A DNA stretch of 64,000 nt. It comes from Candidatus Gastranaerophilales bacterium. GTDB lineage: Bacteria; Cyanobacteriota; Vampirovibrionia; Gastranaerophilales; Gastranaerophilaceae. The translations under genes were made by a program, and so were the position numbers. The stretch covers positions 62,001-126,000 of the forward strand of contig CALVAX010000001.1 of assembly GCA_944325605.1 (NCBI GenBank), given 5' to 3'. This document shows positions 16,885 through 45,570 of this stretch, in pieces (the first letter of the stretch is position 1; the number at the start of each line of letters is the position of its first letter). The notes beneath the pieces were generated by a model. That model ran no database searches, was not told where the DNA came from, and saw only the letters and a list, made by a program, of their open reading frames with translations.

Positions 16885-17808
16885 ATGACAACGCAAGCTT
16901 TAACAAAAGAAAATTTAATGGATTTATATAACAGGGATTTAGATGAACTCCTTGCAATTTCGAAAAAATATATGAAAAACGGAATTGAATTCTGCTCACT
17001 GGTGAATGCAAGAAACGGAAAATGTTCACAGAATTGTAAATACTGTGCCCAGAGTTCGCATTACAACACGGATATAGAAAGCTATCCGCTGATTTCGCCG
17101 GAGGAAGTCAAAAAAGCGGTTCTTGAAGCAAAAAGAAATCACGTGAGCCGTTTTGCCGTTGTGACATCCGGCAAATCTCCGGACGAAAGTGATGTTGACG
17201 GAATTATTGATTTGATAAAAGAAATAAACAAAGTGGACGGGATAAAAAGCTGCGCCTCTATCGGAATTCTGACGGAAGAACAGGCCAAAAAACTTGCAGA
17301 CAGTGGTCTTGTACGTTTTCACCACAACATCAACACAAGCAGATCTTACTATGGCGAAGTCTGCACAACTCACAGCTGGCAGGACAGGCTGAACACCTGC
17401 AAACTTGTCAAAAAATACGGTATGGAACTTTGCTGCGGAGTTATCCTTGGCATGGGCGAAAGCGTTGAACAAAGAGTTGAAATGGCGATGGAATTGAGCG
17501 AAATTCATCCCGAGTCCATCCCGATTAATATTTTGATGCCTATAAAAAACACTCCGTTTGAAAATTATTTTGACAAAATTGACGAAGAAAATATACTCAG
17601 AACTCTTGCCGTATTTAAAATTGCAAACCCTGATTCTATTTTACGTTTTTGCGGAGGAAGAATGAGATTGAGTGAAGGAAATCAGATAAAAGCTTTACAA
17701 TCTTGTGTTGAGGGGATTTTAACCGGAAATTACCTTACTACAACAGGAAAATCACCGGAAGAAGATTTAAAACTTGCAGATAATTTAAATAAAAAAATTA
17801 TTAAATAA
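16885..17808 (+). CDS. bioB: Biotin synthase
   Basis: This 307-residue radical SAM enzyme inserts sulfur into dethiobiotin in the last step of biotin synthesis. The [4Fe-4S] motif CSQNCKYCAQSS (CxxxCxxC) is at about residue 47. Conserved blocks GLVRFHHNINTSRSYYGEV, LCCGVILGMGES and RFCGGRMRL follow, the last holding the Arg ligand of the [2Fe-2S] cluster. The length is normal. No other bio gene is in the window. The ribosome site AAAGGCAG precedes the ATG and a terminator follows at 17842. Confidence 0.97.
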   Translation: MTTQALTKENLMDLYNRDLDELLAISKKYMKNGIEFCSLVNARNGKCSQNCKYCAQSSHYNTDIESYPLISPEEVKKAVLEAKRNHVSRFAVVTSGKSPDESDVDGIIDLIKEINKVDGIKSCASIGILTEEQAKKLADSGLVRFHHNINTSRSYYGEVCTTHSWQDRLNTCKLVKKYGMELCCGVILGMGESVEQRVEMAMELSEIHPESIPINILMPIKNTPFENYFDKIDEENILRTLAVFKIANPDSILRFCGGRMRLSEGNQIKALQSCVEGILTGNYLTTTGKSPEEDLKLADNLNKKIIK

Positions 17809-17841
17809 TATTTGTTTTAGACTTTCGGGTAATATCTTTTT

Positions 17842-17886
17842 AAATACGTCTTTAATAAAATAAAGATGTATTTTGTATTTTTTTAC
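17842..17886 (+). terminator. Intrinsic terminator after bioB
   Basis: AAATACGTCTTTA (17842-17854) pairs with TAAAGATGTATTT (17861-17873, one G-U pair), followed by TTGTATTTTTTT. It separates bioB from the small LuxR-type gene. Confidence 0.7.
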
Positions 17887-17913
17887 TATTTAAGTTTAAA
17901 CACGGGAACGATA

Positions 17914-18078
17914 ATGAAGATCTTAAAAACAAAAAATACCCTTAACAGTCAGGAAATCATGGTATGTAAACTGTTAAAAGAGAACTATGAACTTGAAAAA
18001 ATAGCTGAGATTATGCAGGTAAGTCTGCACACAGTAAAATCACATATTAGCAAAATAAAGAGGATGAATTTAAATTAA
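17914..18078 (+). CDS. Stand-alone LuxR/GerE-type HTH protein
   Basis: This 54-residue protein is almost only a LuxR-type DNA-binding domain (NSQEIMVCKLLKENYELEKI, then MQVSLHTVKSHISKIKRMN). The start at 17914 is chosen over 17866 because the extra N-terminus would be a hydrophobic read-in from the terminator tail and GGGAACG lies upstream of this ATG. There is no receiver or ligand-binding domain. Two more such single-domain proteins are at 28300 and 34318. DNA binding is near certain; targets are unknown. Confidence 0.75.
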   Translation: MKILKTKNTLNSQEIMVCKLLKENYELEKIAEIMQVSLHTVKSHISKIKRMNLN

Positions 18079-18113
18079 AATTATGATATAATTCCGAAAA
18101 AACGGAGAATATT

Positions 18114-18590
18114 ATGTACAGAATAGGTTTGGGATATGACATACACACCCTGCAGGAAGGCAGAGAGCTGATAATCGGCGGGGTGAAAATTACGCATGAA
18201 AAAGGTTTGATGGGACATTCAGACGCAGACGTACTAATTCATGCAATAATTGATGCGCTTCTTGGTGCACTTGCGCTTAGTGATATCGGAACCCTTTTCC
18301 CTGACACTGACAACAAATACAAAGACGCAGACAGCACAATTTTATTAAAGCATGTGTACGGAAAAATTATTGAAAGAGGTTACAAAATCGTGAACATAGA
18401 CAGCAATATTATTGCGCAGGAACCCAAAATGATGCCCTATATCCCTAAAATGCGCGAGACTCTGGATAAAGTCCTTAAAATCGGACAGGAAAATATCAGT
18501 ATTAAGGCTAAAACCAACGAAAAAATGGACGCAGTCGGCCAAAAACTTGCAATCGAAGCACACGCCGTCGTTTTATTGAAAAAAGATTAA
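18114..18590 (+). CDS. ispF: 2-C-methyl-D-erythritol 2,4-cyclodiphosphate synthase
   Basis: This 158-residue trimeric zinc enzyme of the non-mevalonate isoprenoid pathway turns CDP-ME-2-phosphate into MEcPP. The family motifs GLGYDIHTL (metal Asp and His), GHSDADVLIHAIIDALLGA and IGTLFPDTD are present, and the C-terminus KTNEKMDAVGQKLAIEAHA is typical. The ribosome site CGGAG precedes the ATG. The next gene starts 10 nt downstream on the same strand, so they are likely cotranscribed. Confidence 0.97.
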   Translation: MYRIGLGYDIHTLQEGRELIIGGVKITHEKGLMGHSDADVLIHAIIDALLGALALSDIGTLFPDTDNKYKDADSTILLKHVYGKIIERGYKIVNIDSNIIAQEPKMMPYIPKMRETLDKVLKIGQENISIKAKTNEKMDAVGQKLAIEAHAVVLLKKD

Positions 18591-18977: not shown

Positions 18978-19790
18978 TTAGGCTTTATCCGCGCATTCCA
19001 GACAGAAATGCTCAACTGCTGTCGCCCAGCCGTCGTTGTCGACAGTATCGGTCACATAATCCGCACATTCTCTTAATGCAGGGGTGGAATTTCCCATGGC
19101 AATCTTAATTCCGCCGGCTTTCAAAAGTTCAATATCGTTGTCCTGATCGCCGATTGCCAGAATTTCTTCCTGCTTGATACCCCAGAGGTTCTGAAGAAAT
19201 TTAACGGCATTACCTTTTGTTGCCTCTTTATTTGCAATCTCGCAAAAATACGGGGTGGATTTTACTGTGTATAAATCAGGAAACATTTTCCCTAAATCCC
19301 GAACCCAGCCGGTTACTCTGTCTGCGTCATTAAAGTCAATTGCCAGAATTTTATTAACATTTTGAATTTTCAATTTGTCAAACTTGCAGATATGATAGTC
19401 AATAAATCTTGCATCTGTGTACTTGCGGATAGTTTCGGAATCCTGTTCTACGTACAAAACATCATCCATATAAAGATTTATATGAATATCATTTTCATGA
19501 GCCCAATCAATAATTTCCTGTGCTCTTTCAGAGTCCATATCTTTTCTGTACAGAACTTTATCGGACTTGTAAAATTCTTTAATCATTCCGCCCTGATAAG
19601 AAACAATAGGTTCTTTTATTCCCAGTTCTTTTGCTATACCGATTGCGGCACAGTGCATTCTGCCTGTCACAAGAACAACTTTTATGCCGTTGTCCTGAAG
19701 CTTTTTTATTGCATCTTTCACATAAGGGCTGTATTCATAACTCCATTTTAAAAGAGTTCCGTCAACATCTGTTGCAACCATCTTAATCAT
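18978..19790 (-). CDS. Cof-type HAD-superfamily phosphatase
   Basis: This 270-residue cytoplasmic haloacid dehalogenase-type hydrolase has motif I DVDGTLLKWS at residues 8-17 (nucleophile Asp), motif II VLVTGRMH, a Lys in motif III (NKEATKGNAVKFL) and motif IV AIGDQDNDIELL. The inserted cap between motifs II and III is type C2B, as in Cof/YbjI sugar-phosphate phosphatases. The substrate is unknown. It overlaps the upstream Nudix gene by one base (TAATG), so the two are an operon. Confidence 0.93.
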   Translation of the reverse strand: MIKMVATDVDGTLLKWSYEYSPYVKDAIKKLQDNGIKVVLVTGRMHCAAIGIAKELGIKEPIVSYQGGMIKEFYKSDKVLYRKDMDSERAQEIIDWAHENDIHINLYMDDVLYVEQDSETIRKYTDARFIDYHICKFDKLKIQNVNKILAIDFNDADRVTGWVRDLGKMFPDLYTVKSTPYFCEIANKEATKGNAVKFLQNLWGIKQEEILAIGDQDNDIELLKAGGIKIAMGNSTPALRECADYVTDTVDNDGWATAVEHFCLECADKA

Positions 19791-20323
19791 TATTCAAGCC
19801 CTCTCATAACAGCACAAATCGTCTTTGCGTCCGTAATTTCATTATTTTTTATCATCTTTTTTATTTCATCAATTGTGTATTCATATTCTATCAAAATTTC
19901 GCCTTCATCAGGGCATTCTCCGACAAATTCAAGATCTTCCGCCTTATAAAGGTATAATTTTTCATCACTGTACCCCGGAGATGTAAAAACATACCCTAAA
20001 TCCTGCCACTTTTCAGCGACATATCCTGTTTCCTCTTTCAACTCACGTTTTGCAGCCTCAAAGGGGTCTTCGCCTTTTTCCAGTTTTCCTGCCGGAAGCT
20101 CTAAAAGAGCGTGTTTGAGAGGATATCTGAATTGTTTGACCATAAGAACTTTTTCAACGCCGTCTTTTTTGCATAAAGCAAAAATCACAACACCGCCGGA
20201 GTGCTCGACAACTTCCCTGAAAGAAGTTTTTCCAGTTGAAAGCTCCACCTCATCTTTAAAAACGGTTATAATCTTTCCGTCATAAACAACATCGCTTGTT
20301 AAAGTTTTTTCAATCAAATCCAT
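19790..20323 (-). CDS. Nudix hydrolase, ADP-ribose pyrophosphatase type
   Basis: This 177-residue protein has a complete Nudix box GKLEKGEDPFEAAKRELKEE followed by TGY (about residues 92-114) and the ADP-ribose pyrophosphatase-like lead VEHSGGVVIFALCKKDG and VKQFRYP. It would cleave a nucleoside diphosphate linked to another group, ADP-ribose being the usual substrate of this subgroup. Ribosome site GAGGAT is upstream. It is first in an operon with the HAD phosphatase, a pairing that fits nucleotide or sugar-phosphate housecleaning. Confidence 0.92.
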   Translation of the reverse strand: MDLIEKTLTSDVVYDGKIITVFKDEVELSTGKTSFREVVEHSGGVVIFALCKKDGVEKVLMVKQFRYPLKHALLELPAGKLEKGEDPFEAAKRELKEETGYVAEKWQDLGYVFTSPGYSDEKLYLYKAEDLEFVGECPDEGEILIEYEYTIDEIKKMIKNNEITDAKTICAVMRGLE

Positions 20324-20379: not shown

Positions 20380-20408
20380 TTGATTATTAATGATATTTCC
20401 GTTATAAT
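20380..20408 (+). promoter_or_regulatory. Sense promoter of hydrophobic-peptide module A
   Basis: TTGATT (20380-20385) and TATAAT (20403-20408) with an ideal 17-nt spacer; transcription should begin near 20415, leaving a leader of about 70 nt before the small ORF. Confidence 0.75.
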
Positions 20409-20430
20409 AAATTCAAGGGTAAGTTCCAAA

Positions 20431-20480
20431 CACCTCCCCTGTCACATACAGTTTACGAAGAAAACGACAGAAAGGAGGTG
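20431..20480 (+). promoter_or_regulatory. Leader hairpin that can hide the Shine-Dalgarno of module A
   Basis: CACCTCCCCTGTC (20431-20443) is complementary to GACAG (20466-20470) and GGAGGTG (20474-20480), with an AAA bulge. The ribosome site would be buried in the full-length RNA. Further out, GTTCC (20423-20427) can pair with GGAAC right after the stop (20561-20565), a 5'-3' clasp as in known type I toxin mRNAs. Confidence 0.6.
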
Positions 20481-20485
20481 GTACA

Positions 20486-20560
20486 ATGAATAGAAAAATA
20501 ATTAAAAGCGCTCTAGTGGTGCTAGATGCGCTCTTAAAATTAGTTATTATCTATTTATAG
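20486..20560 (+). CDS. 24-residue hydrophobic peptide, module A (type I toxin-like)
   Basis: ATG at 20486 has a very strong ribosome site (AGAAAGGAGGTG, ending 5 nt before). The peptide starts with a basic stretch MNRKIIK and continues as one hydrophobic helix (ALVVLDALLKLVIIYL). Size and design match membrane-acting type I toxins such as Ibs or Fst, but the sequence matches none I know. The coding region contains the inverted repeat GCGCTCTAG (20508-20516) / CTAGATGCGC (20522-20531), which read on the opposite strand is a terminator. Related copies lie at 23728, 24065 and 36566. Confidence 0.7.
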   Translation: MNRKIIKSALVVLDALLKLVIIYL

Positions 20561-20610
20561 GGAACGAAGAACGGGTTGGATGTAAACGGCATTCCAATCC
20601 GTTTCCCTAT
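20500..20610 (-). ncRNA. Predicted antisense (antitoxin-like) RNA of module A
   Basis: On the minus strand TTGACA (20639-20644), a 16-nt spacer and TATAAT (20617-20622) make a near-consensus promoter starting RNA near 20610. It would run through the sense terminator and most of the ORF, ending at the hairpin GCGC..GCGC followed by TTTTAATTATTTTT near 20500. Length is about 110 nt and it is fully complementary to the sense 3' part. Promoter and terminator are seen; the RNA itself is predicted. Confidence 0.65.
20561..20606 (+). terminator. Sense terminator of module A
   Basis: ACGGGTTGGATG (20571-20582) pairs with CATTCCAATCCGT (20590-20602, one bulge and one G-U), clamped by outer GGGAA/TTCCC. 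The following sequence TATATTCTCATT is only moderately T-rich. Confidence 0.55.
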
Positions 20611-20772
20611 ATTCTCATTATAAACCATTTTTTCGCTTTGTCAATCCTAACTGATTATTAATAATATTTCTGATATATTTTCGTTGATTTTACAATATTT
20701 TACAAAACGTCAATTCTTGCAGAGCTTAATACTTTATATAAATATAAAGGGGAATTATCAAAAGGGGAAAAT

Positions 20773-23606: not shown

Positions 23607-23635
23607 TTGACCTTGAGATTAAATTTCTGTATAAT
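23607..23635 (+). promoter_or_regulatory. Sense promoter of module B
   Basis: TTGACC (23607-23612), 17-nt spacer, TATAAT (23630-23635); start near 23642. The leader then holds AAGCCCTG (23649-23656), perfectly complementary to CAGGGCTT just after the stop codon (23800-23807), and CTTTTCC (23668-23674), which can pair with GGAAAGG of the ribosome site (23710-23716, one G-U). Confidence 0.75.
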
Positions 23636-23727
23636 AACACCGTAGGGCAAGCCCTGATTCACATTAACTTTTCCGGAAAGCGCAAACTATAAATTTGTCA
23701 AACTTTTCAGGAAAGGAGGTGATAAGA

Positions 23728-23799
23728 GTGACTTTCGCGATAAGCGAAAAAGCGCTAATAATAATATTACTTATTATATTAGCGCTTAAACTACTCTAA
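23728..23799 (+). CDS. 23-residue hydrophobic peptide, module B (type I toxin-like)
   Basis: GTG at 23728 lies 8 nt after an exceptionally long ribosome site (GAAAGGAGGTGAT matches the whole usual 16S 3' end). The product has a short polar start (MTFAISEK), then a Leu/Ile/Ala helix (ALIIILLIILALKLL). The coding region carries an 11-bp perfect inverted repeat AAGCGCTAATA (23750-23760) / TATTAGCGCTT (23777-23787). It shares leader, terminator and antisense promoter almost unchanged with copies C and D although the first half of the peptide differs. Confidence 0.7.
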   Translation: MTFAISEKALIIILLIILALKLL

Positions 23800-23840
23800 C
23801 AGGGCTTTAAAAGGGGCAAGGTGGGACTTGCTCCGCCCTT
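23745..23840 (-). ncRNA. Predicted antisense RNA of module B
   Basis: The minus-strand promoter is TTGAAA (23869-23874), 16-nt spacer, TATAAT (23847-23852). RNA from about 23840 would cover the sense terminator and two thirds of the ORF. It would end at the hairpin AAGCGCTAATA/TATTAGCGCTT followed by TTTTT near 23746, about 95 nt in all. Confidence 0.65.
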
Positions 23841-23846
23841 ATTTTT
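23813..23846 (+). terminator. Sense terminator of module B
   Basis: GGGGCAAG (23813-23820) pairs with CTTGCTCC (23827-23834, one G-U), followed by GCCCTTATTTTT. Confidence 0.7.
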
Positions 23847-23943
23847 ATTATAACTTATTTTTCTTAAATTTCAACCCCGACGGATGCGCAGAAATTTCTC
23901 TAATTGTTATCTCCGGTTTACTTTAATAATATTTCCGAAATAT

Positions 23944-23972
23944 TTGACCTTGAGATTAAATTTCTGTATAAT
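23944..23972 (+). promoter_or_regulatory. Sense promoter of module C
   Basis: TTGACC (23944-23949), 17-nt spacer, TATAAT (23967-23972). Sequence from the promoter to the ribosome site is nearly identical to module B 337 bp upstream, so B and C arose by tandem duplication. The clasp AAGCCCTG (23986-23993) / CAGGGCTT (24131-24138) is conserved. Confidence 0.75.
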
Positions 23973-24064
23973 AACACCGTAGGGCAAGCCCTGACTCACA
24001 TTAACTTTTCCGGAAAGCGCAAACTATAAATTTGTCAAACTTTTCAGGAAAGGAGGTGATAACG

Positions 24065-24130
24065 TTGGTCATAAATCAAATAGAGCTAGCACTTATCCTT
24101 GTGATAATACTAGCTCTAAAATCCAACTGA
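24065..24130 (+). CDS. 21-residue hydrophobic peptide, module C (type I toxin-like)
   Basis: The TTG start at 24065 is assigned because it lies 8 nt after GGAGG, the same spacing as the GTG of module B, and no other start fits. The peptide begins MVINQIE, continues LALILVIILALK and ends SN. It is close to the peptide of module D (36566) and shares the LxLxxIILALK core with B. An inverted repeat, TAGAGCTAG (24081-24089) / CTAGCTCTA (24110-24118), lies inside the ORF. Confidence 0.68.
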   Translation: MVINQIELALILVIILALKSN

Positions 24131-24172
24131 CAGGGCTTTAAAAGGGGCAAGGTGGAACTTGCTCCGCCCTTA
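24073..24172 (-). ncRNA. Predicted antisense RNA of module C
   Basis: The minus-strand promoter is TTGAAA (24201-24206), 16-nt spacer, TATAAT (24179-24184), with start near 24172. It would end after hairpin TAGAGCTAG/CTAGCTCTA followed by TTTGATTTATG near 24073. The sense terminator (24144-24165) lies inside it. Confidence 0.62.
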
Positions 24173-24178
24173 TTTTTT
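24144..24178 (+). terminator. Sense terminator of module C
   Basis: GGGGCAAG (24144-24151) pairs with CTTGCTCC (24158-24165), followed by GCCCTTATTTTTT. Confidence 0.7.
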
Positions 24179-24270
24179 ATTATAACTTATTTTTCTTAAA
24201 TTTCAACCCCGCCGGAGATGCGCAGAAACGTCATATATTTCTATTATCAACGCAGCCTTATACCGACAAA

Positions 24271-36445: not shown

Positions 36446-36474
36446 TTGACCCGAAACAATTGTTTTCATATAAT
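36446..36474 (+). promoter_or_regulatory. Sense promoter of module D
   Basis: TTGACC (36446-36451), 17-nt spacer, TATAAT (36469-36474); start near 36481. The promoter is divergent from lepA. The leader matches B and C; its clasp AAGCCCT (36487-36493) pairs with GGGGCTT (36633-36639), keeping pairing through a G-U change. Confidence 0.75.
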
Positions 36475-36565: not shown

Positions 36566-36631
36566 TTGGTTATAAATCAAATAGAGCTAGTTATTATCCT
36601 TGCGATAATACTAGCCCTAAAAACCAAATAA
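36566..36631 (+). CDS. 21-residue hydrophobic peptide, module D (type I toxin-like)
   Basis: TTG at 36566 lies 8 nt after GGGGG of the ribosome site (AAAGGGGGTGAT), the spacing of modules B and C. The peptide begins MVINQIE, has the core LVIILAIILALK and ends TK. It differs from the module C peptide at a few conservative positions, so the hydrophobic protein, not only the RNA, appears to be kept. The ORF holds TAGAGCTAG (36582-36590) / CTAGCCCTA (36611-36619), one mismatch. Confidence 0.68.
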   Translation: MVINQIELVIILAIILALKTK

Positions 36632-36677: not shown

Positions 36678-36778
36678 ATTATAACCTATTTTTCTAAAAT
36701 TTCAACCCGCATAGAACCAAAGCCGGAACGGCGAAGCCGTTCCGGTCTGGTATTTAATCTGTCTGTCTGTTCTGTTTT

Positions 36779-40996: not shown

Positions 40997-41275
40997 GGGA
41001 TTTATACAGCAAATTTTCACTAAAGATTTTCAAAACTGCGTCATGCTGAGCCGCAGAATCTGCCTGATAGACTATGTAATCCTGAGGCTTTAGCAAAAGG
41101 AGCTCAATCAGCAACAATATTTTGTCATTCTGAGTTTGCGGATTTTCGGTAGGGTGAAGCGAAGCGGAACCCGTAAACTCCGCCCGCCCCCAGAATAATC
41201 CAAGATAGTTTCAGTATCTCCACTGGATTCTGAAATAAATTCAGAATGACAGTAAAGGACAAAATATTATTGTTG
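40997..41275. repeat. Dispersed palindromic repeats between aroC and aroK
   Basis: There is no gene in 40990-41759. From 40997 a degenerate copy of the TATATAGCAAATTCC-type repeat runs to about 41085. A second unit is bounded by CAACAATATTTTGTC (41111) and GACAAAATATTATTGTTG (to 41275), with inner GTCATTCTGA/TCAGAATGAC arms. A related unit recurs at 45080-45360. None contains a believable ORF. Confidence 0.6.
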
Positions 41276-44799: not shown

Positions 44800-45570
44800 C
44801 CGGACATTTTTCTTGCGGTAAATTATAATTTCCCACAACATACGGACTCATTGCCTTGACCGTTTCGTCCTTTATTCGTAAAAATATTTTGTCCTCCGGA
44901 CGGGGGCACTTTTGGTGGCAAAAGTGCCTCAAAACCAGCCACACGCTTCGTTCGCTAATAATTTGCAAAGGCTTGGCATTTAGGCGGGTAAACTCACTTC
45001 GCTCAAACAATACCCGCCTTTGATATTTGCCTCGCCGGCAATTATTGCTCACTCAGCTATCGTGGCATTTGGTTCAACTACAATATTTTGTCATGCTGAG
45101 TTTGCGGATTTTCGGTAGGGTGAAGCAAAGCGGAACCCGTAAGGTGCGGGTCGGACGTTACTCCGCCCGCACCCCGAATAATCCAAGATAGTTTCAGACA
45201 CCCAACGTCATCCTGAGGCGCACGAGCAGAGGGTGAAAGGCGTTAGCCGTACCCGTTTACTGCGAGTGCGAAAAGCCGAAGGATCTTCTGGAAACGCAAG
45301 AAGATTCTTCGGTCGTTTCACTCCCTCAGAATGACATGACGGACAAAATGGGGCGATTTCTTATCGCCTTTTTCTGAAACAAACCCTTCAACCTTTCACC
45401 CATTCCACTATTCAACTCTCCTCACGCTTCACTTTATCGTTCGCCCTAGCGCCTTAGCACCTTAGTATCTTTTTCTGAAACAAACCCTTCAACTGTTCAA
45501 CCATTCACCCGTTCAACATTTCAACTTTCTTCACCCTTCACCCTTCACTCCTCACTCTTCACACAATTAA
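44800..45570. repeat. Gene-free repeat graveyard
   Basis: No credible gene lies in this 800-nt stretch. It holds GGCACTTTTG-GTGG-CAAAAGTGCC (near 44907-44930) and a long copy of the TCATTCTGAG-type repeat (45080-45360) with GGCGGGTA-rich inserts. A 25-bp direct repeat is at 45368-45392 and 45469-45493, and a pyrimidine-rich tract of TTCACCC/TTCAAC units runs to about 45565. Short ORFs here are by-products of the repeats. Confidence 0.6.

Follow-up and report, generated by a model that had tools for sequence, protein, structure and literature searches.

An apparent antisense RNA ending within a tiny membrane-peptide gene marks candidate type I toxin-antitoxin modules of the Gastranaerophilales

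Results

Module A and its relatives in the window

The window, by which we mean the whole 64-kb stretch of DNA analysed here, contains four small modules (A, B, C and D), each with an ORF for a short hydrophobic peptide downstream of a strong Shine-Dalgarno sequence. Module A extends from 20380 to 20644 and thus ends where a preliminary description (20500-20644) had placed its end, but begins well upstream of the start given there. On the plus strand, a sense promoter (TTGATT-N17-TATAAT, 20380-20408, a 10/12 match, with a putative start near 20415) precedes a leader that holds the 5' segment GTTCC (20423-20427), the anti-Shine-Dalgarno CACCTCC (20431-20437), one copy of a direct repeat (ACGAAGAA, 20455-20462) and the Shine-Dalgarno GGAGGTG (20474-20480). 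In the predicted fold CACCTCC pairs with and sequesters GGAGGTG, and the repeat copy lies in a hairpin loop. The ORF (MNRKIIKSALVVLDALLKLVIIYL, 20486-20560), encoding a putative membrane toxin, is followed by GGAAC (20561-20565), the partner of GTTCC in a helix that closes the 5' end onto the 3' UTR, by the second copy of ACGAAGAA (20564-20571) and, in the predicted fold, by a sense terminator hairpin (20560-20607) with a weak U tract.

On the minus strand, directly beyond the sense terminator, whose stem ends near 20607, lies the promoter described earlier (20617-20644), with TTGACA at 20639-20644, a 16-nt spacer and TATAAT at 20617-20622 exactly as claimed. An RNA starting near 20610, as we infer from the position of these boxes, would be ~110-120 nt long (20490-20610, both ends predicted) and would stop at an intrinsic terminator within the ORF (20490-20537), composed of a hairpin of -17.5 kcal/mol (20502-20537) and a U-rich tract (20501-20490); the complement of the 3' UTR repeat copy is predicted to be exposed in a bulge of this RNA. 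An automatic terminator scan reported none at module A, and probably missed this one on account of a 1-nt bulge in the stem, which that scan disallows. On sequence grounds, the opposite-strand promoter of module A appears to give rise to a short antisense transcript whose 3' end falls within the gene for a tiny membrane peptide.

Modules B, C and D, as had been noted, differ from module A across nearly the whole sequence; the layout is common to all four. Each has a TTGACC-N17-TATAAT sense promoter on the plus strand (23607-23635 in B, 23944-23972 in C, 36446-36474 in D), an ORF on the same strand with an antisense terminator inside (MTFAISEKALIIILLIILALKLL with a GTG start at 23728-23799; MVINQIELALILVIILALKSN with a TTG start at 24065-24130; MVINQIELVIILAIILALKTK with a TTG start at 36566-36631) and, on the minus strand, the antisense boxes TTGAAA-N16-TATAAT (23847-23874, 24179-24206 and 36678-36705). 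The terminator stem of module D contains A-C in the sense strand and G-U in the antisense strand.

The antisense promoter is near-consensus and fixed in place across the family

TTGACA-N16-TATAAT occurs once in the window with all 12 positions matched, namely as the antisense promoter of module A. When up to one mismatch is allowed there are 7 matches, compared to 0.80 ± 0.82 in shuffles, and modules A, B, C and D account for four of them, each with its antisense promoter; the sense promoters of B, C and D were found among the N17 promoter matches in the window.

RNAalifold returned no consensus structure from a mixed A-type alignment, probably because MAFFT misaligned the variable stems, and the first search model was therefore sequence-only. 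It was built from 12 A-type modules and cut before the antisense -10 box. Within the family to which the window belongs, model search located modules in 83 of 117 genomes and in 36 of 41 genera, and a few genomes from two other families of the order also carried them, so that such pairs number in the hundreds across the Gastranaerophilales; in a phylum-wide sample, all of the matches listed fell within the window's own family. The 2.1-Mb genome of the window itself carries about nine modules, two of them A-type (C1:82417 and C2:63331) and seven B-type. For a 777-aa protein encoded in the window, the closest named relatives come from Candidatus Gastranaerophilales, at 46% and 36% identity (CALUPV010000034.1 and CALVEH010000003.1). 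DNA pattern scans of genome contigs and viral contigs gave no exact match, a plasmid search gave no match, and Rfam gave zero families at the gathering score and only chance-level matches at a relaxed threshold.

Our analysis covered 96 diverged modules, the majority supplied by a single Candidatus Gastranaerophilales family and most of them found with the box-free model; related modules among them are non-independent, an effect of kinship that clustering and permutations lessen and do not remove. The set was filtered for a Shine-Dalgarno sequence and a hydrophobic ORF, whereas antisense features were not a filter. Scoring the best minus-strand promoter near the stop codon of each module, we counted 12 modules without a mismatch, 70 with one, 10 with two, 3 with three and a single one with four. 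A promoter with at most one mismatch was thus present in 82 of 96 modules, versus none of 93 adjacent 120-nt stretches and 0.16% of shuffles, and in 63 of the 74 modules that had not been used to seed or build the model. The edge of its -10 box mostly lies 41-72 nt beyond the stop codon. These counts establish the promoter as a sequence feature, and transcription from it is our inference.

The poorest promoter match belongs to a locus with a disrupted ORF, where the search region is displaced (L063, G033:C4:66464-66670). The ORF of this locus continues through the 3' UTR, its frame apparently lost, and no damage is apparent in its sense leader, repeat words or antisense promoter; judged from sequence, it is perhaps a decaying toxin whose antitoxin has been retained.

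The module A orthologues in G004, G006 and, at a contig end, G013 keep both boxes at 12/12 in the homologue alignment that had been proposed as a check. Together with the family-wide promoter count, they support the earlier suggestion that the antisense RNA is functional. The earlier description needs one correction: a near-consensus promoter at a fixed place is conserved, and the exact boxes are not the target of selection, since about half of the family has AATAAT, mostly with N17.

A covarying direct repeat and a 5'-3' helix

The leader of A-type modules contains a 6-9 nt word, which in most cases precedes the Shine-Dalgarno sequence by 10-16 nt, and a second copy of this word lies just past the stop codon. 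We counted 42 such words in all, including TACTAAG, GTGAAGAAA, CTGTAGGA, GCGACAA and TCTGAAACA. The two copies covary: the match within a module's own pair is 6.44 nt versus 4.91 ± 0.11 in permuted pairs (p < 1/5000), and an inverted-orientation control showed no excess, a null outcome on which we rejected a chance origin of the direct repeat. In predicted folds the leader copy is mostly unpaired (0.78, compared to a leader value of 0.52). The antisense RNA carries the complementary word ~42 nt into its sequence, where a bulge in the first hairpin leaves it likewise exposed (0.70 versus 0.39). Direct repeats are unable to pair with each other, and the simplest link between them is therefore an RNA that is complementary to one copy and recognises the other; judging by its sequence, the antisense RNA can be this link. 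The predicted antisense RNAs are 97-134 nt long across modules and lie nearly entirely inside the mRNA.

A second covariation joins the 5' end of the mRNA to the start of the 3' UTR. Both sides of this helix change between modules (AAGCCCTG/CAGGGCTT, AGCCCCT/AGGGGCT, AAACCCT/AGGGTTT and GTTCC/GGAAC), with a score of 13.4 for a module's own pair versus 11.3 ± 0.24 for permuted pairs (p < 1/5000) and a null control, so that permutation establishes the helix, like the repeat covariation, at the level of sequence. In modules B-D, which are B-type, a covarying direct repeat is not clear, and the more prominent feature is the 5'-3' helix. Family-wide, the predicted pairing probability of the Shine-Dalgarno sequence is 0.90, compared to 0.70 with a shuffled leader.

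Peptides, turnover and mobility of the modules

Nearly all of the 96 peptides are 21-32 aa long, with a median GRAVY of 1.6, hydrophobicity having also been a filter of the set. They matched no family in Pfam or NCBIfam, and very weak holin and TatA-like matches were seen (E 0.13-0.21).

ORFs change faster than their flanks. Compared with its orthologue in G006, module A is identical over the 52-nt 3' UTR and 93% identical over the promoter-leader stretch, versus 65% in the ORF (46% for the peptide); the antisense promoter stretch is 68% identical, with both boxes intact. Modules B and C are 54% identical in the ORF, 96% in the leader and 93% in the 3' UTR. Placed side by side, the two comparisons (L020 of G006 against window 20380-20660, and window 23644-23880 against 23981-24215) give 54-65% for ORFs and 93-100% for leader and 3' UTR. 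On this sequence evidence it looks as if ORF-plus-terminator cassettes were swapped between modules.

Orthologues of module A occupy the same place in G004 and G006, with a partial one at the contig end in G013. In four related species (G003, G005, G007 and G008) the same NUDIX gene is present without an upstream module; at the three readable empty sites it is followed directly by the 21905 gene, and in G008 the contig ends there. By such site comparisons, modules are gained and lost as units of ~280 bp. In G011, a B-type module (L180) lies upstream of the NUDIX gene, where the window genome has an A-type module.

The phage record PP511318.1 also contains a module, flanked by tail genes on one side and an endolysin gene on the other. 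It is 76% identical over 98% of an A-type module from the window genome and, by inspection, complete, with matching repeat words, an antisense promoter and an antisense terminator. The phage is Dulem virus 31, from lemur faeces, and the module lies at L182:3921-4300 (PP511318.1 around 17800-18180). The taxonomy line of the record reads Microviridae, which looks wrong because the genome is 35.8 kb long with baseplate and tail genes.

Tandem clusters with differing peptides are frequent, as in L049 of G009 (modules at 292, 1349 and 1725, with partly different repeat words) and in L006 (G000:C2:85428-85887). Elsewhere in the window, a 69-bp repeat occurs in two copies with 94% identity (41108-41176 and 45074-45142, GTCATTCTGAG...GGGTGAAGCGAAGCGGAACC), and a similar piece in L173 (G009) suggests an extragenic repeat dispersed within the genus.

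Is the peptide a toxin, with an antisense RNA as its antitoxin? We consider it improbable that the antisense RNA is real and the peptide a small membrane regulator or a holin-like peptide instead, although the toxicity is putative, the holin and TatA-like similarities, very weak as they are, point in that direction, and the phage-borne module has tail and endolysin genes as its neighbours. Better agreement is obtained between a type I toxin-antitoxin locus and the tight double lock on the message (a sequestered Shine-Dalgarno sequence and a closed 5'-3' helix) combined with a strong antisense promoter, the presence of several modules per genome that carry different addresses, the rapid turnover of the ORF under fixed regulatory flanks and the gain and loss of modules at a site.

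It is more doubtful still that the minus-strand promoter at module A merely serves the leftward genes (the NUDIX gene at 19790-20323 and the gene at 18978-19790) and that there is no antisense regulator. These genes do lie downstream on the minus strand, the nearest beginning ~290 nt from the putative start, but we rejected this explanation on three grounds: the empty sites, where the NUDIX gene manages without an upstream module, the intrinsic terminator that intervenes between promoter and NUDIX gene, and the place of the promoter relative to the ORF, which is constant across many loci and genera.

The antisense terminator is encoded within the ORF

Nearly every ORF contains a palindrome that, read on the minus strand, forms a hairpin followed by a T-rich stretch (for example AAAACCGTTATAATTACCGTTATAACGGTTTTTATTAT). 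All 96 modules have a terminator-like hairpin on the antisense strand, and in 88 of them it reaches at least 10 kcal/mol. Hairpins this strong numbered 24 on the sense strand and 2 in shuffled sequences, and 6 of 92 downstream flanks had one. Against synonymous recoding, the stem has a median z of 3.1 and ranks in the top 5% in 86 of 96 modules.

Wherever one strand forms a G-U wobble, its complement is left with an A-C mismatch. In the stems of 89 modules, the sense strand has 86 A-C versus 10 G-U, while the recoded control is at 1.13:1; when modules are clustered, 22 of 24 informative clusters favour the antisense strand and 2 are opposite. We also aligned 25 rows from the commonest class. 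Read on the antisense strand, 99.1% of the cells of this alignment are paired, with 24 G-U and no A-C, and the sense strand shows the reverse; double changes occurred in 9 of 13 pairs, and in far fewer when the alignment was slid or shuffled. The wobble test is strand-specific and the decisive one: the hairpin is selected as an antisense-strand RNA, and the same statistics establish the terminator as a sequence feature. Such wobble asymmetry offers a purely computational test for the functional RNA strand of a coding palindrome.

That the palindrome is instead a feature of the sense strand or the peptide is hardly credible and was rejected: hydrophobic repeats such as TVITVIITV could give palindromes from repeat-like codons, and the sense strand also folds, but synonymous recoding rarely reproduces the palindrome, wobble pairs are almost confined to the antisense strand, and in the subfamily with MDxFNIS peptides, where the hairpin has shifted to the stop codon, the T-stretch still follows on the antisense strand. 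As judged by sequence, the case for a functional antisense RNA draws more strength from the ORF-internal antisense terminator and from the covarying direct repeats than from the boxes, and it goes well past what a single promoter can offer.

Discussion

With considerable confidence, we propose that modules A, B, C and D are type I toxin-antitoxin loci under antisense control, in which the antisense RNA very likely silences the membrane-peptide gene. The plus strand would give rise to an mRNA of ~200 nt for the hydrophobic peptide. With a leader hairpin enclosing its Shine-Dalgarno sequence and the 3' UTR pairing with its 5' end, the fresh message would be poorly translated. The promoter beyond the sense terminator would yield an antisense RNA of ~110-120 nt, running across the 3' UTR and then over the greater part of the ORF, up to the intrinsic terminator encoded there. 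In A-type modules, the antisense RNA could bind the leader loop of its own message first because it carries the repeat complement in a bulge, and this contact would block the translation start; a long duplex over 3' UTR and ORF might then form, which RNase III could cut. When the supply of antitoxin falls, the message would be freed and the peptide would insert into the membrane. Because the repeat word differs between modules, it may act as an address that pairs each antitoxin with its own toxin.

Beyond the window, we lean towards regarding these loci as a type I superfamily not described before and present in hundreds of copies in the Gastranaerophilales, a reading that jointly comprises an address repeat, cassette exchange between fixed flanks and dual-coded ORFs, in which one strand would encode a membrane peptide and the other the terminator of that peptide's own antitoxin.

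Two hallmarks of type I systems are found here, namely a small hydrophobic peptide gene (96 peptides) and, on sequence evidence, an opposite-strand antisense RNA gene with its own promoter and terminator. By analogy, the modules would work like par/Fst of pAD1 yet stand outside that family. In par/Fst, RNA I and RNA II are made from convergent promoters, the direct repeats DRa and DRb target the antitoxin to the site where translation begins, the 5' end is sequestered, and a 5' stem holds the Shine-Dalgarno sequence (PMC7472228, PMC4147584); the two par RNAs share one common bidirectional terminator, and their overlap stays outside the coding region (PMC4147584). The modules resemble this member of the Fst/Ldr family in their convergent promoters, small hydrophobic peptide, sequestered 5' end and, in predicted folds, Shine-Dalgarno sequence within a 5' stem. 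A further likeness, seen in the A-type only and not clear in B-D, is the presence of direct repeats both close to the start of translation and within the antitoxin gene. Unlike par/Fst, the antitoxin has its own terminator inside the ORF, PxxxG is present in 0 of 96 peptides, and there is a single repeat word, again in the A-type only.

In txpA/RatA, bsrG/SR4 and bsrE/SR5 of B. subtilis, the antitoxin forms a duplex of 100-140 bp with the 3' portion of the toxin mRNA, and SR4 also reinforces the sequestration of the Shine-Dalgarno sequence, according to the passages of PMC6562991 drawn on here. The long 3' overlap of toxin mRNA and predicted antitoxin is similar in the modules, whereas those passages describe no direct-repeat address, and the peptides of the modules are non-homologous (by the lack of Pfam and NCBIfam matches) and come from a different phylum. 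Ibs/Sib of E. coli shares with the modules very short hydrophobic peptides and several paralogous modules whose antitoxins must distinguish siblings. Sib spans the entire ORF and the ribosome site (PMC4147584), whereas the predicted antisense RNA of the modules stops inside the ORF and would reach the leader only through the repeat.

The literature that we searched contains one candidate type I system from Cyanobacteria, MsoT1/MsoA1 of Microcystis, reported in 2025 (PMC12390103), and no paper that links type I systems to the Gastranaerophilales. As far as the consulted portion of that report goes, MsoT1 is larger than the peptides of the modules (~8.8 kDa when tagged) and has two predicted helices, and an embedded terminator or covarying repeat like those of the modules is not mentioned. 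Until this candidate, reports of type I systems were confined to Proteobacteria, Firmicutes and Tenericutes (PMC12390103). If our reading is true, the modules would add a large type I set in a gut lineage, and their 42 repeat words provide natural variation for measuring how the specificity of antitoxins evolves.
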